A stretch of DNA of 64,000 nucleotides from Prosthecobacter sp. SYSU 5D2 (GTDB lineage: Bacteria > Verrucomicrobiota > Verrucomicrobiia > Verrucomicrobiales > Verrucomicrobiaceae): assembly GCF_039655865.1 (NCBI RefSeq), contig NZ_JBBYXL010000003.1, positions 310,001 to 374,000 on the forward strand, given 5' to 3'. A model generated the notes under the pieces. That model was not told the origin of the DNA. It made no database searches and saw only the letters and a list, made by a program, of their open reading frames with translations. Both the position numbers and the translations under genes were made by a program. Positions 7,823 to 41,602 of the stretch are shown here, piece by piece (within the stretch, counting starts at the first letter, position 1; every line of letters begins with the position of its first letter).

Positions 7823-7868
7823 AAGTCCTGCGGGACGCAGGACTTAGCACGCGGGACGCGTGCGCTCC
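7823..7868 (-). repeat. Tandem REP-like hairpins with GGA/TCC loops
   Basis: Two perfect hairpins sit side by side. AAGTCCTGCG / CGCAGGACTT (7823-7832, 7836-7845) closes on GGA. GCACGCG / CGCGTGC (7847-7853, 7857-7863) also closes on GGA. On the minus strand the loop reads TCC, and GGAG (CTCC at 7865-7868 on +) stands at the 5' foot. The position downstream of the kinase stop would also suit a transcription-attenuating structure. A close relative of the second hairpin occurs at 41384-41405. Confidence 0.7.
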
Positions 7869-13298: not shown

Positions 13299-13930
13299 TG
13301 AATATTGTCATCACCATCGACGGCCCCGCCGCCTCGGGCAAAAGCAGCGTCGCACGCATCCTCGCCCAACGTTTGGGATACATTTATGTCAATACGGGCA
13401 ACATGTACCGGGCCATGACCTGGGCCGTTTTACAGACGGACATTGACCCTAATGACATGGATGCCGTGCGAGAAACAGCAAAGAAGATTCTGATTGAATC
13501 CCCGGTCTTAGAAGGCCAGACGCAAGTATCCGTGAATGGCAAACTGCTCACAGCGGATGACCTGAATAGCGATCCCGTCAACCGGGGTGTCTCACTCGTC
13601 GCGCGGGTGCCGGAGGTCAGGTCGCGGCTGGTGGCGGATCAGCGAGCGCTGTCCAGCCTTGGCCCTCTGGTCATGGAAGGGCGGGACATCGGCAGTGTGG
13701 TGTTCCCCGAAAGCCCGCTGAAGTTTTATATTGATGCCAGCGAGGAAGTCAGGGCCGCCCGCCGTCAGGCCCAGGGCCATACGGACCAGGTGGCCGAGCG
13801 TGACCGCCTGGACTCCACCCGCAAGACCTCTCCTCTGGTCATCCCGGAGGGCGCTATCGTGATTGATAACAGCCACCTTACCCTCGAAGGTGCCGTGCAG
13901 GCCGTTCTTGACCGTCTGCCGGCAAAGTGA
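13295..13930 (+). CDS. cmk: Cytidylate kinase
   Basis: Cmk phosphorylates CMP and dCMP to the diphosphates. The P-loop GPAASGKSS lies at 10-18, and RLGYIYVNTGNMYRAM follows. VMEGRDIGSVVFP is the conserved substrate/Asp motif, and the lid region is REVRAARRQAQGH-like. The protein has 211 residues. Two ATGs are possible, 13295 (overlapping the aroA stop) and 13298. The coupled first one is used here. Confidence 0.95.
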   Translation: MMNIVITIDGPAASGKSSVARILAQRLGYIYVNTGNMYRAMTWAVLQTDIDPNDMDAVRETAKKILIESPVLEGQTQVSVNGKLLTADDLNSDPVNRGVSLVARVPEVRSRLVADQRALSSLGPLVMEGRDIGSVVFPESPLKFYIDASEEVRAARRQAQGHTDQVAERDRLDSTRKTSPLVIPEGAIVIDNSHLTLEGAVQAVLDRLPAK

Positions 13931-13933
13931 AGC

Positions 13934-14066
13934 GGGCACTCCTGCCTGCTTGCTAGAAAACCTCGCTGATTGATCTCCATGATGTCCATCACTTCCGCCA
14001 CCTGGCATCCGGGGCCTCTGTCACCTCATCGGCCTTTCAGCCTCACTTTGGCAGGCAGGAGTGCCC
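13934..14066. repeat. Long inverted repeat of the REP-like family
   Basis: GGGCACTCCTGCCTGC (13934-13949) and its exact reverse complement (14051-14066) flank 101 bases between cmk and plsC. Each arm can also fold on itself around a CTCC loop. The arms match the hairpins at 24430-24447 and 41358-41375. The interior shows no reading frame of note. The copy lies between two co-directional genes and may form a large stem-loop in the transcript. Confidence 0.7.
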
Positions 14067-24420: not shown

Positions 24421-24512
24421 GAGAGGAGCGTGGGCACTCCTGCCCGCACCTTTCATAGTCGCGGCTTCGCCGCCAATTTAATTCAGCGGACAAGAGTGTC
24501 CGCGCTCCTCTC
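24421..24512. repeat. REP/BIME-like palindromic element (three hairpins)
   Basis: A 92-base element is bounded by GAGAGGAGCG (24421-24430) and its reverse complement (24503-24512). Inside are three hairpins: GTGGGCA-CTCC-TGCCCGC (24430-24447), GCGGC-TTC-GCCGC (24461-24473) and GCGGACA-AGAG-TGTCCGC (24486-24503). The two outer hairpins face each other, each with GGAG at its outer foot, which is the classic BIME arrangement. It lies between convergent genes. Confidence 0.75.
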
Positions 24513-24528
24513 ACCAGACTTCCCGTAG

Positions 24529-24548
24529 CTCGATTTTCCAAAATCGAG
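24529..24548. terminator. Candidate bidirectional hairpin
   Basis: CTCGATTTT (24529-24537) and AAAATCGAG (24540-24548) form a perfect 9-bp stem with a CC loop. The stem carries its own T/A run. It sits between the convergent DUF1501 and UPF0175 genes and may end transcription from both sides. Confidence 0.45.
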
Positions 24549-24593
24549 AAGGCTCGCCAGGTATTCAGTAACCGAGCTGTCTTGCGTCTCCAA

Positions 24594-24638
24594 GGAGTGA
24601 GGCCATCCTGGCCTCAACCTGACGGCAGGATGCCGTCA
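24594..24638. repeat. Two further REP-like hairpins with TCC/GGA loops
   Basis: After GGAG (24594-24597) comes TGAGGCCA-TCC-TGGCCTCA (24598-24616). A second perfect hairpin, TGACGGCA-GGA-TGCCGTCA (24620-24638), follows. The loop trinucleotide is again TCC on one strand, although the stems differ from every other copy. The end lies 20 bases from the UPF0175 stop codon. Confidence 0.7.
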
Positions 24639-24657
24639 CACCTTGCGTCAAGCATCC

Positions 24658-29435: not shown

Positions 29436-32400
29436 ATGCTCCGCCACGTCCTTCTTTCCCTCCTGCTGCCCTTGTCTCTCGTCGCCCAGGCAGCGGAAAT
29501 CCGCCCGCTAAAGGCGCTTCTCGTCGCTGGTGGTTGCTGCCATGATTACGCCCAACAGCACGTTATCCTCAGCCAGGGCATCCAGTCCCGGGCCAATGTG
29601 CAGGTGGATGTCGTCTGGACCGATGACAAATCCACCAACCCTCCCCTGTCCCTATATAACAACCCGGACTGGGCCAAAGGCTACGACATCGTCATTCACG
29701 ACGAATGCGCCGCCGGAATGAAGGACTTCGGCGCCATCAAGCGCATCCTGGACGTCCACAAGACCGTCCCCGCCGTGCATCTGCACTGCGCCATGCACAG
29801 CTTTCGGCCCGGTAACGACTCCTGGTACAAGCACCTCGGACTCCAGTCCAATTCCCACGGCCCGCAGCTCCCCATCGCCATCACCTTTGTGGACCGGGAC
29901 CACCCCATCACCCAGCCCCTCGCCGACTGGACAACCATCAAAGAGGAGCTGTATAACAATGTGAACCTCTTCGATGCCCACCCCCTGGCCATGGGCAAAC
30001 AGACGGTGAAACAAAAGGACGGGACGATGCAGGACGTGGAATACATCGTCGCCTGGACGAACGAGAAGCAGGGCGCGCGCAGCTTTAGCACCACCCTCGG
30101 TCACAACAGCGAAACCGTCGCCGATGCCCGCTACCTGGACCTCATCACCCGTGGCCTCCTTTGGGCCTGTGACAAACTCACGCCAGAATACCAAACTGCC
30201 TTCAAGGGCCAAAACAAAATCACCTTTGTCAAAGGCGATCCCTCCCCACCCAAGCCCCAGCCAAAACCCGCCACAGCAGCAGCCACCCCACCCCCCGCCG
30301 CCAAAGACGCCACCCTAGTCACAGTCACCGCCAGCAGCGAGGAAAGCGGCAAAAACAACTTCGCCTGGCGCGCCGTGGATGGCGACGAATCCACCCGCTG
30401 GTGCGCCAGCAATGCCACCTACCCGCAGTGGCTCCAGCTTGAATTTGAAAAACCCCAGTCCCTCACCGGCATCACCACCACTTGGGAAAACACAGGTGTC
30501 TATCGCTACAAGATCGAAGCCTCCCCAGATGGCCAGGCCTGGACCACCCTTGTAGATGCCTCCGCCAACACCCAAGGCGCACCTTACAATAACGACTTCA
30601 CCAAAACGGATAACATCAAGTTCCTCAAAATTCATGCTCTCAGCAAAAACAGCGGCGGCTGGGCCAGCATCCGCGAAGTGAAGCTGAAAGGCGCAGGCAT
30701 CAAATCCCTCGCCCCCAAAATGAGCGCCCAGCAGCAGGTCACTGCGGCAAAGGTCGTGAAGGAAGAATCCGACCCCTATAAAAACGCAGGCAACACCCCG
30801 CCCAAGATCGTCAAGCTCACCGCCGAAGAAGAAGCCGCCATTCTCAAGGACGTCAAAGTGCCCGAAGGTTTCGAAGCCACTCTCTTCGCCAATTCCGCCG
30901 CCGCCAACTACCCCGTCTTCGTCGCCGCTGCACCCGATGGCACCCTTTATGTCAGCAGCGATGGCAACGGCTCCCTCGGCCGCAATCCCAAGCGCGGCCG
31001 CATCATCCGCCTGCGCGATCTGGATGGCGATGGCCGGGCCGATGAAGCCAAGGTCTTCTGCGAGGTGGACAGCCCGCGCGGACTCGTCTGGGATCACGAC
31101 CGCCTCTATCTCGTCCACCCGCCGCACCTCAGCGAGTTCATTGATGCCGATGGCGACGGCGTCGCTGAGAAGCAAAACATCCTCGTCAAGGACATTGCCT
31201 TCGGATTCAAAGACCGGCCCGCCGACCACACCACCAACGGCCTCAGCCTCGGCATAGACGGCTGGCTCTACATCGCCGGCGGTGACTTCGGTTTCATGAA
31301 GGCCATCGGCACCGATGGCCGCACGCTTCAGCATCGCGGCGGCGGCGTCATCCGCGTCCGCCCTGACGGCACCGGATTGGAAATTTATTCCACCGGCACC
31401 CGCAACATCCTGGAGGTCGCCATCAGCCCCCTCATGGACATCTTCGCACGCGACAACACCAACGACGGCGGCGGCTGGAACGTCCGCTTCCATCACTTCA
31501 CCGGCCTGGACGACCACGGCTACCCGCGCCTTTACAAGAACTTCAATGACGAGTGCATCCAGCCCCTGGCCGACTACGGCGGCGGCTCCGGTTGCGGAGC
31601 CGTTTACATTGACGAGCCCGGCTTCGGCGAAGCCTGGAACAACGCCCCCTTCACCGCCGACTGGGGCACCGGAGCCATTTACAAACATTCTGTTAGGCCC
31701 AAAGGCGCCACCTTTGAAGAGGTCAAAGCCCCCGAGCCCTTCCTCAAAATGACCCGCCCCACCGATGCCGACGTGGACGCCATGAGCCGCGTCTATGCCG
31801 CCAGCTGGAAAGGCGCCACCTTCAATTGGGCCGGGCCTGATGTGGGTTTCATCGTTCAGGTGAAACCCAAAGGCTTTAAACCCGAGCCGCTCCTGGATTT
31901 CGCTAAGGCGGCTGATGCCGAACTGGTGAAGGAACTTGAATCTCCGAGCAACCGCCGGAGGATGGAAGCGCAGCGGACGATCATAAATAGGCAAAGCTAT
32001 TTTGGTGGCATTGAAAGCCTAGCTAGTCTTGCAAAAGACAACTCGAACAACTGGTGTACAAGGATTGCGGCGCTTGATATCATCGCCCGTCTAGACCTGT
32101 CAATTGCCGGCTCGCTCGCGCAGGATCTATATATTGAGTCTTTTGATGGTGCCAGACACACTCTTTGGCTTCTAACCGAACACCCAGCAATCATTCCCGA
32201 AGGTTTAGAAACCATTGATATTCCCGAAACTGTTGGCGCTCCTGGACCTGCTTTAGCACTGGCCAAGTTTGCGAATAAACACCCCAAGCTAAATCGACAA
32301 ATCTTGTCTTCTGTCGCACGCATCTCAATACTTTTTGGAGATTCCGTTGCACAACATGCAGCGGCTCAAGCAATTGGGCGATCCAACAATTTTGCCACGG

Positions 32401-33959
32401 TGTTCGATATGCTAGATAAGGACAAAACGAAGGAGTCATTAGATGTGATCGCGCTCCGCGCCCTCGCCATGATGCACCAACCCAAGGTCGTCACCGGCCT
32501 CATCGAGCGCCTCACCAAAGCCACCGATCCCGCCCTCCGCCAAGGCATCCTCGCCGCCCTCTGCCGCCTGCACTTCACCGAAGGCGAATGGAAAGGCGAT
32601 TCCTGGGGCACGCGACCCGACACACGCGGCCCGTATTACCAGCCCGAACCCTGGAGCGAAACCCCCAAGATCGCCGCCGCCCTCAAAGAAGCCCTGGCCA
32701 AAGCTGGTCCCGAAGAAGCCGCCTTCCTCGTGAAGGAGATGAACCGCAACCGCATCCAGTCGGATGACGCACTCCAGCGCATCCTCACCCTCGCCAAGCA
32801 GGACCCCAAAGTCATCCCCGATGCCGTCTCCCAGCTCGCCGCCGCCGAGACCATCCCCTCCGAAGCCATCCCCATGCTGGTGCAGGTCGTCAGTACTGCG
32901 GGCACTCCAGCCCGCAAAGCCGAGGGGAGCGCGGACACTCCTGTCCGCCCGAAAAACAATGGCGGCGAAGCCGCGAAGCCAGACGATGCGGGCAAGAGTG
33001 CCCACAGTACGACCCTCTCCCAAGCCATCATCGCCCTCACCAAAACCGACAGCGCCGAAGGAGCCGCCGCCACCCTCGCCGCCCTTGGCCCTCTCAAGAA
33101 AATGGAAGGCGCTTTCAAAGACTACGAAGCCGCCTCCACCGCCTTCTTCACTTCCCCCAAGCTCGAAAACCATCACCAGCTCATCGAAGACATCGCTGGG
33201 AAACTGGATGGACAAACTTCCGGTTATGCCGATGCCGCCCTCCTCCACCTTGCCGCCCGCACCACCGGCAGTCCGGAATCCCGCGAGCTCTCCCAAAAGG
33301 CCCTCGACCGCGGCTGGCAGGAACCCAAACGCCGCATCCAGATCATTGACGCCATCGCCTCCCTCAAGCACCAGGCCTCCGCTCCCAAAATCCTCTCCGC
33401 CTTGGACGACCCCGATTCCAAAGTCAAAGCCGCCGCCGAACGCGCCGCCAAGACCATGAAGCTGACCCGCGTCGTGGACACCACTCCCAAGCTGGCCACC
33501 TTGACCCCGGAGGCCGCCATCGCTGCCGTTCTCAAAACCAAGGGCGACATCTCCCTCGGCGAGCAGGTCTTCACCCGCGCCACCTGCATGGCCTGCCACA
33601 CCGTCAAAGAATCCGAAGCCCAAAAAGGCCCTTACCTCGGCAACATCGCCCAGACCTACAAACGCGCTGAGCTGGCCCAAAATATCCTCGATCCCAACAA
33701 GACCATCGCCCAGGGCTTCGCCAGCGAGATGATCACGCTGAAGGACGGCACCCAGCAGATGGGTTTCATCACCCTGGAAGGCTCCGCCGAAGTGAAGCTG
33801 CGCAACATCGCCGCCCAGGAGTTCACCTTCAAAACCGCCGATATCAAAGAGCGCCAGAAGCTCCCCATGTCCATGATGCCCCCCGGCCTCATGCTCAACT
33901 TCACCGTCCGCGAGTTCGCCTCCCTCCTCGATTACCTCGAAGCCCTGGCCAAGAAATAA
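29436..33959 (+). CDS. Giant exported ThuA/discoidin/PVC-dehydrogenase/HEAT/cytochrome c protein
   Basis: The 1507-residue product begins with a signal peptide (MLRHVLLSLLLPLSLVAQA). In order I see: a ThuA-like domain (about 22-265; LLVAGGCCHDYAQQ); a Pro/Ala linker; an F5/8-type discoidin domain (about 285-430; NNFAWRAVDGDESTRW); a six-bladed propeller of the PVC dehydrogenase type (about 465-830; PEGFEATLFA, LRDLDGDGRADE, IDADGDGVAEK); HEAT-like repeats (about 835-1345); and a C-terminal heme c domain with CMACH at 1384-1388. Such proteins are thought to oxidise sugars and pass electrons onward. Residues about 849-1003 lie in a low-GC block, and residues about 1153-1192 come from a REP-like insert. 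Confidence 0.88.
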   Translation: MLRHVLLSLLLPLSLVAQAAEIRPLKALLVAGGCCHDYAQQHVILSQGIQSRANVQVDVVWTDDKSTNPPLSLYNNPDWAKGYDIVIHDECAAGMKDFGAIKRILDVHKTVPAVHLHCAMHSFRPGNDSWYKHLGLQSNSHGPQLPIAITFVDRDHPITQPLADWTTIKEELYNNVNLFDAHPLAMGKQTVKQKDGTMQDVEYIVAWTNEKQGARSFSTTLGHNSETVADARYLDLITRGLLWACDKLTPEYQTAFKGQNKITFVKGDPSPPKPQPKPATAAATPPPAAKDATLVTVTASSEESGKNNFAWRAVDGDESTRWCASNATYPQWLQLEFEKPQSLTGITTTWENTGVYRYKIEASPDGQAWTTLVDASANTQGAPYNNDFTKTDNIKFLKIHALSKNSGGWASIREVKLKGAGIKSLAPKMSAQQQVTAAKVVKEESDPYKNAGNTPPKIVKLTAEEEAAILKDVKVPEGFEATLFANSAAANYPVFVAAAPDGTLYVSSDGNGSLGRNPKRGRIIRLRDLDGDGRADEAKVFCEVDSPRGLVWDHDRLYLVHPPHLSEFIDADGDGVAEKQNILVKDIAFGFKDRPADHTTNGLSLGIDGWLYIAGGDFGFMKAIGTDGRTLQHRGGGVIRVRPDGTGLEIYSTGTRNILEVAISPLMDIFARDNTNDGGGWNVRFHHFTGLDDHGYPRLYKNFNDECIQPLADYGGGSGCGAVYIDEPGFGEAWNNAPFTADWGTGAIYKHSVRPKGATFEEVKAPEPFLKMTRPTDADVDAMSRVYAASWKGATFNWAGPDVGFIVQVKPKGFKPEPLLDFAKAADAELVKELESPSNRRRMEAQRTIINRQSYFGGIESLASLAKDNSNNWCTRIAALDIIARLDLSIAGSLAQDLYIESFDGARHTLWLLTEHPAIIPEGLETIDIPETVGAPGPALALAKFANKHPKLNRQILSSVARISILFGDSVAQHAAAQAIGRSNNFATVFDMLDKDKTKESLDVIALRALAMMHQPKVVTGLIERLTKATDPALRQGILAALCRLHFTEGEWKGDSWGTRPDTRGPYYQPEPWSETPKIAAALKEALAKAGPEEAAFLVKEMNRNRIQSDDALQRILTLAKQDPKVIPDAVSQLAAAETIPSEAIPMLVQVVSTAGTPARKAEGSADTPVRPKNNGGEAAKPDDAGKSAHSTTLSQAIIALTKTDSAEGAAATLAALGPLKKMEGAFKDYEAASTAFFTSPKLENHHQLIEDIAGKLDGQTSGYADAALLHLAARTTGSPESRELSQKALDRGWQEPKRRIQIIDAIASLKHQASAPKILSALDDPDSKVKAAAERAAKTMKLTRVVDTTPKLATLTPEAAIAAVLKTKGDISLGEQVFTRATCMACHTVKESEAQKGPYLGNIAQTYKRAELAQNILDPNKTIAQGFASEMITLKDGTQQMGFITLEGSAEVKLRNIAAQEFTFKTADIKERQKLPMSMMPPGLMLNFTVREFASLLDYLEALAKK
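31980..32444 (+). other. Low-GC block inside the giant dehydrogenase gene
   Basis: Composition drops abruptly inside the reading frame. Bases 31981-32040 have 23 G/C of 60, whereas 31081-31140 in the same gene have 38 of 60. Codons rare elsewhere here (ATA, CTA, TTA, AGA) appear. GC-rich codons resume at about 32445 (ATCGCGCTCCGCGCC). The frame and helical-repeat character are kept, so it looks like an exchanged or imported segment. Confidence 0.65.
32893..33010 (+). repeat. REP-like palindromic element inserted in frame in a coding sequence
   Basis: The element is bounded by GTACTGCGGGCA (32893-32904) and TGCCCACAGTAC (32999-33010), inverted with one difference. It holds four hairpins: GCGGGC/GCCCGC (32898-32915), GCGGACA-CTCC-TGTCCGC (32931-32948, with GGAG at 32926-32929), GCGGC-GAA-GCCGC (32962-32974) and GCGGGCA-AGAG-TGCCCAC (32988-33005). 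The last three repeat the order seen at 24421-24512 in reverse. Translation stays open and gives a low-complexity Gly/Ala/Lys/Thr stretch. Confidence 0.75.
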
Positions 33960-41294: not shown

Positions 41295-41602
41295 AGGGTT
41301 GGATGATGTACAAAATGGAACGTTTCCCTCCCTCCCGCAAGATGCGCTGAAAGTACGGTGGGCACTCCTGCCCGCCTCTTCCTGGAGCGCGCGCGTCCCG
41401 CGTGCCGTTTTCCGCGCCTCGCGGGAAACCGTTCCATGATCTGCTTCTTTGCTCCAAGCAAGCCCCTAGAACACCTTCATTCCACCGCATCCCTCAAAAC
41501 TGCCCCTCATACCCCCAGTTCGCCAGCCTGTACCGATTTCCTCCCGGATAAATCCCTCCCCCGTTCCTTGACCTGCCATCCCCTCCCCGCTATCACCTTC
41601 CC
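41295..41602. other. 308-base intergenic region with REP-like hairpins
   Basis: This gap lies between divergent uvrC (-) and the SMP-30 gene (+), so it must include both promoters. The only clear content is the repeat at 41353-41429. No small gene or further structure was seen in 41430-41602. Confidence 0.4.
41353..41429. repeat. REP-like element with three hairpins
   Basis: GTAC (41353-41356) precedes GTGGGCA-CTCC-TGCCCGC (41358-41375). GGAG (41384-41387) precedes GCGCGCG-TCC-CGCGTGC (41389-41405). A third stem, GTTTTCCGCG (41407-41416) with CGCGGGAAAC (41420-41429), has one mismatch. The first hairpin matches the element at 24421, and the second matches the one at 7847-7863. Confidence 0.7.

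Follow-up and report, generated by a model that had tools for sequence, protein, structure and literature searches.

Analysis of the hairpins dispersed through a 64,000-nucleotide stretch of the Prosthecobacter sp. SYSU 5D2 genome (the window; G000:C3:310001-374000) revealed that they fall into at least four families of REP elements. Many of these elements are arranged as head-to-head, REPIN-like doublets, and it is very probable that they are spread by RAYTs, HuH enzymes that would read both the loop and the head of the element. Within families, stems vary much more than the short pyrimidine loop, which is most often TCC. The 5.87 Mb genome was examined by way of selected stretches and pattern searches. 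The elements of the window, together with the open reading frame that hosts three of them, are as follows:

7823-7845, minus strand: REP-like hairpin AAGTCCTGCG-TCC-CGCAGGACTT, without counterpart in the region downstream of lysC in the closest relatives
7847-7868, minus strand: REP hairpin GGAGC-GCACGCG-TCC-CGCGTGC, GGAG foot at 7865-7868
13930-13951, plus strand: degraded family B-like hairpin AAGCGGGCA-CTCC-TGCCTGCTT
24423-24447, plus strand: family A REP GAGGAGC-GTGGGCA-CTCC-TGCCCGC, left half of a head-to-head doublet
24486-24510, minus strand: family A REP GAGGAGC-GCGGACA-CTCT-TGTCCGC, right half of the doublet begun at 24423
24592-24615, plus strand: AAGGAG-family REP AAGGAGT-GAGGCCA-TCC-TGGCCTC, left half of a 53-bp doublet
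24621-24644, minus strand: AAGGTG-family REP AAGGTGT-GACGGCA-TCC-TGCCGTC, right half of the 53-bp doublet
29436-33959, plus strand: host open reading frame with ThuA, F5/8 type C, DUF7133 and cytochrome c domains and with REPs in frame in a variable linker
32892-32916, plus strand: family B hairpin AGTACTGCGGGCACTCCAGCCCGC, within the host frame
32926-32948, plus strand: family A REP GGAGC-GCGGACA-CTCC-TGTCCGC, in register with the host reading frame and absent from aligned relatives
32987-33010, minus strand: family B hairpin GTAC-TGTGGGCA-CTCT-TGCCCGCA, partner of 32892-32916
41351-41376, plus strand: family B hairpin AAGTAC-GGTGGGCA-CTCC-TGCCCGCC
41384-41405, plus strand: hairpin GGAGC-GCGCGCG-TCC-CGCGTGC, one mismatch

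The first-pass annotation had listed eight hairpins with TCC or CTCC loops, and a direct sequence check located all eight. Perfect stems measure 10 bp at 7833, 8 bp at both 24606 and 24628, and 7 bp at both 7854 and 32938; the remaining three are weaker (5 bp at 24437 and at 41365, and 4 bp at 41396, where pairing resumes past one mismatch). Four of the GGAG feet had been placed correctly (7865-7868 on the minus strand, 24594-24597, 32926-32929 and 41384-41387), whereas the first lies at 24425-24428 and not at 24423-24426, which reads GAGG, an offset of 2 nt. Partner hairpins that had gone unlisted complete the doublets: 24486-24503 on the minus strand, with a GGAG foot and a CTCT loop, the GGTG foot of 24621-24644 on the minus strand, and the AGTAC-footed hairpins at 32892-32916 and, on the minus strand, 32987-33010.

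The window has five perfect stems of at least 7 bp closed by TCC or CTCC, whereas 60 Markov shuffles yielded 0.22 on average and never more than 2. The first-pass annotation had also proposed counting copies against background, and such counts show an excess: the GAGGAG-headed family A has 11 strict copies genome-wide and none in the reversed-pattern control, and the AAGG[N]G family has 38 matches against 5. Across the five REP patterns searched, copies amount to 11, 32, 39, 38 and 16, against 0, 3, 0, 5 and 0 in the corresponding controls. The elements are, as is typical of REPs, multicopy, dispersed short palindromes. A chance origin was rejected on the window excess over shuffles and on the genome-wide excess of family copies over controls. 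The TCC-loop excess is modest when the window is combined with 0.5 Mb of randomly sampled sequence (6 versus 0.7 for stems of at least 7 bp, several of the six lying within the window), since copies are sparse. A scan for GGAG followed by a hairpin in an own-genome sample gave 93 matches versus 64 in shuffled sequence, but it is biased by the inclusion of stretches chosen for their family A matches and is not relied upon.

Family A has the form GAGAGGAGC-GCGG(A/G)CA-CTC(C/T)-TG(T/C)CCGC, and family B, AAGTAC(T/G)-GCGGGCA-CTCC-TGCCCGC, has the same hairpin on a different foot. Family C (GTACAGTANTC-ATCACTC-TCC-GAGTGAT; 39 copies versus 0 in controls) often occurs as head-to-head pairs approximately 80-110 bp apart. 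Members of the AAGG(A/T/C)G family, 24592-24644 among them, are often paired as doublets of 53 bp in which 5 nt separate the hairpins. A further family, CCATGGAGC-GCCGACG-ATC-CGTCGGC, has 16 copies. Inverted doublets as the repeating unit, the hallmark of REPINs, are thus seen in families A, C and AAGG[N]G. The feet read GGAG, GGTG or GGCG in the family A and AAGG[N]G families, and are of the AGTAC type in families B and C (AGTAC, GTACAGTA), differing from GGAG. The GT(A/G)G foot of REPs is absent from the window families and present in other RAYT families of relatives. Exact copies of a family A 23-mer occur mainly in Verrucomicrobiaceae and related MAGs; others are found in MAGs labelled Acidobacteria, Pyrinomonadaceae and Phycisphaeraceae; some of these non-verrucomicrobial copies could lie on mis-binned contigs.

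The elements look mobile, because orthologous sites are either empty or differently filled. The closest relatives lack the doublet downstream of lysC (7823-7868), and other species carry a different GGAGC hairpin directly after the lysC stop codon. In the linker of the 29436-33959 frame, relatives have either no hairpins or pairs built on other stems, placed in the same codon register; the hairpins found there include GCGGGCA-CTCC, CGGGCT-TC, GCATAGGCT-TTC, CCACTTTC-TCC, GGGGGCA-TTCC and CGAGCT-TC, such that at least five different stems occupy one position of the orthologous ThuA/cytochrome c gene across species (L352-L368 versus window 32890-33012). Furthermore, a REPtron of approximately 730 bp on contig C18, consisting of a RAYT gene and both flanking REPs (C18:31982-32003 and 32690-32711), lies in frame inside a glycosyltransferase gene (locus L002, G000:C18:30590-33838), producing a single 757-aa open frame. 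The same linker is empty in G016, G012 and several more distant relatives, and in G017 it holds another RAYT, 47% identical, with other REPs.

These two sites raise the question as to whether stems turn over by replacement in situ, with another REP taking the place of the old one, as in the proposed orthoswitch, rather than by fresh insertion. The recurrence of at least five stems at one linker codon position in the genus, in the same register, and of two different RAYTs in one glycosyltransferase linker in two species, is consistent with such an exchange. However, some relatives lack any element, and both sites are variable linkers, so that recurrent insertion where it is tolerated explains them as well; we therefore regard replacement in situ as possible but rather unlikely.

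The link between REPs and RAYTs proposed in the first-pass annotation, along with its suggestion to look for a RAYT gene in this genome, proved well founded. Matches to the RAYT model NF047646 occur in 59 of the 61 genomes of the bacterial family, many of which have more than 10. In the genome studied here, two RAYT genes lie between inverted GGAG-headed hairpins, the arrangement expected of REPs: the RAYT on contig C11 is flanked by CCAAGGAG hairpins with a GCC loop, and that on C18 by CCATGGAGC-GCCGACG-ATC, the REP with 16 copies in the same genome. Family A hairpins flank RAYT genes in the same inverted manner at two loci outside it, L127 (a Verrucomicrobiaceae MAG) and L185 (a Verrucomicrobia MAG). 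The RAYT at L185 has a match to E. coli TnpA_REP (4ER8; E 3.6e-8) and another to Y1_Tnp. The RAYTs of the present genome score 67-71 bits against NF047646, under its cut-off of 80, and match Y1_Tnp above the cut-off; the MPNHVH and YIRxNP motifs are present, giving the HuH motif and downstream Tyr of a RAYT/TnpA_REP. No cognate RAYT for families A, B or C was identified in this genome, so some of these families may be orphans here, and none for the 39-copy family C was found among the RAYT loci fetched.

To extend these observations, the flanks of 110 RAYT-like genes were fetched from relatives, and 117 loci were scanned for recurring hairpins. Recurring hairpins footed by GGAG, GTAG or GTGG turned up at 52 of the 117 loci and represent 43 distinct types (GGAG 28, GTAG 11, GTGG 4); these feet were pre-selected, and a foot-agnostic scan gives mostly the same ones. 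Loops are pyrimidine-only in 28 of the types and purine-only in two (binomial p 8.7e-7, a value that overstates the evidence because related RAYTs, and hence types related by descent, are not independent). Both purine-only types resemble the opposite strand of pyrimidine-loop hairpins, and foot-plus-hairpin matches in random sequence from the own genome show no bias (pyrimidine-only to purine-only, 19:18). GGAG clusters in a phylogeny of 55 RAYT domains, where it requires 7 changes, compared with 15.7 in shuffles. Both intact RAYTs of the own genome fall, together with the family A RAYTs, in one supported clade comprising 15 GGAG RAYTs, across which the stems are mostly unrelated. This pattern indicates that a RAYT lineage tends to keep its head type but not its stems, and that loops drift within a pyrimidine-rich range.

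Three other observations were made among the RAYT-like genes. At L158 (Acidobacteria MAG ACE_ACI2), a RAYT lies between identical inverted hairpins, ACGGGAAC-GCGGGCA-TCTC-TGCCCGC, with a pyrimidine loop and a GGAA foot. A second type of Y1_Tnp gene is represented by a 381-aa open frame in L010 and by four partial copies near contig ends (L005, L006, L007 and L009); a multicopy element at which the assembly broke is the probable explanation. Finally, Y1_Tnp/RAYT domains recur across the bacterial family in open frames of approximately 890-960 aa, possibly fusion proteins, at G012:C1:174353, G017:C12:66952, G032:C115:141309, G046:C209:3379, G057:C166:6799 and G060:C1:2073185.

The own-genome searches left the loop and inner stem open, and their matches were therefore not selected on the loop. 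The search AAGGNGNGANG-N9-CNTC returned the 38 matches of the AAGG[N]G family, which holds 24592-24644, and 32 of these fold as hairpins. Among the 32 there are 11 stems, and the loop is TCC (28) or TCT (4): T at position 1 and C at position 2 in every case, and C (28) or T (4) at position 3. The stems show compensatory changes, with one pair divided between GC (17) and CG (15) and the closing pair between AT (19), GC (10) and TA (2). The search for family A, GAGCGNGG-N10-CCGC, gave 43 matches (11 in the control), of which 31 were counted as hairpins; their loops are CTCC (12), CTCT (5), CCCT (5) and rarer others, with C as the third base in 29 of the 31. The view that the loop is constant and the stem is not hence applies within families, but not between them, since other RAYT families here have ATC and GCC (both in the own genome) or TGT loops. 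The first-pass annotation had considered such a family unusual; it is less so than claimed, because short TY loops have already been described (PMC3733652), although the constancy of the loop itself stands. Its two suggested explanations, loop-specific recognition and stem turnover, are both plausible.

The constancy could alternatively reflect common descent only, a few REP families having inherited TCC with nothing reading the loop. Indeed, TCC/TCT loops show some clustering on the RAYT tree. However, stems of the same lineages have changed beyond recognition with loops that are still pyrimidine, one family in one genome combines 11 stems with two loops, and the loop bases of group 3 are functional (PMC8266576); descent alone is therefore improbable. 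It is far less probable still that the hairpins are transcript structures (terminators or mRNA stabilisers) selected for an RNA function rather than transposed DNA. Many do lie between genes or just past stop codons, but the window has no Rfam match, and the hairpins occur in both orientations, as head-to-head doublets and inside an open reading frame, with RAYT genes flanked by inverted copies and a patchy presence at orthologous sites. Pairing of the head with the loop, as a pseudoknot or between elements, which would keep the loop constant through complementarity, is likewise very unlikely: the GGAG head and CTCC loop of family A are indeed exact complements, but foot and loop do not covary. 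The AAGG[N]G foot varies (GGAG, GGTG, GGCG) with the loop remaining TCC/TCT, REPs with a GTAG head likewise show TCC/TCCC loops, and a GGAG head can go with TTT, GCC or ATC.

Recognition of the loop by a RAYT thus appears to be the best reading of the constant loops, and the fixed TC in a loop on a changing stem fits it. The RAYT would bind the folded hairpin when the strand is single-stranded, with the 5' GGAG head read as a guide and the short pyrimidine loop, typically TC(C/T), serving as the specificity contact. The stem would need mainly to pair, and compensatory changes would be tolerated because it is read chiefly as a helix. The RAYT would then cut near the head and move the element elsewhere, and stems would drift or switch as head and loop persist. 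We infer that GGAG retains the A3G4 proposed to select CT cleavage. It is conceivable, if somewhat doubtful, that for the RAYTs of this lineage the loop and head form a fixed code and the stem sequence hardly matters, with the REPs or REPtrons in a given slot being swapped for ones with new stems and families turning over in place.

Few RAYTs have had their REP recognition worked out in biochemical detail. A bacterial family in which each genome encodes several RAYTs that differ in stem but resemble one another in the chemistry of head and loop offers a natural experiment on what the enzyme reads, and it predicts a head/loop code. The definition of the REP head is also widened, and published searches based on GT(A/G)G would miss the REPs found here.

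Although the first-pass annotation took GGAG for a known mark of REPs, published heads are GT(A/G)G, or CnGA for class 3 (PMC2817692, PMC6006769), and a GGAG head was not found in the open-access papers searched. Pseudomonas REPs do contain GTAGGAGC, in which GGAG abuts the stem. The GTAG REPs and RAYTs (TnpA_REP) of groups 2 and 3 are alike in having a tetranucleotide 0-2 nt 5' of a short palindrome, stems of 6-9 bp, short loops, dispersed copies, and inverted copies around a Y1 transposase gene; the head here is GGAG (also GGTG and GGCG) rather than GT(A/G)G, and the loop mostly TC(C/T) or CTC(C/T). The tetranucleotide has been proposed as a cut guide, and loop bases are essential for the group 3 TnpA_REP of Stenotrophomonas and Marinomonas, but not for that of E. 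coli (PMC8266576). The palindromes here are short and near perfect with conserved loops, and they may share the loop requirement of group 3. The orthoswitch, a change of stem within a RAYT lineage, was proposed for Pseudomonas and Stenotrophomonas (PMC3686654). REPINs of Pseudomonas fluorescens (PMC3116915) share the inverted pairing of REPs and the compensatory changes, whereas the AAGG[N]G doublet is just 53 bp, with 5 nt between hairpins, and its left and right heads are often unlike (GGAG/GGTG). The GTAG-20 REPs of Opitutus terrae (Di Nocera 2013, PMC3733652) are likewise dense in a member of the Verrucomicrobia, with a head that is mostly GTGG there and GGAG here. The TnpA of IS200/IS605 (IS608, ISDra2) also employs a guide tetranucleotide 5' of a hairpin, with a loop base contacted; in contrast, REPs are multicopy and mostly separate from the RAYT gene, with no autonomous IS ends shown here. 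REPs, RAYTs, doublets and short TY loops are, then, already known, and it is the GGAG head that departs from the kinds described.
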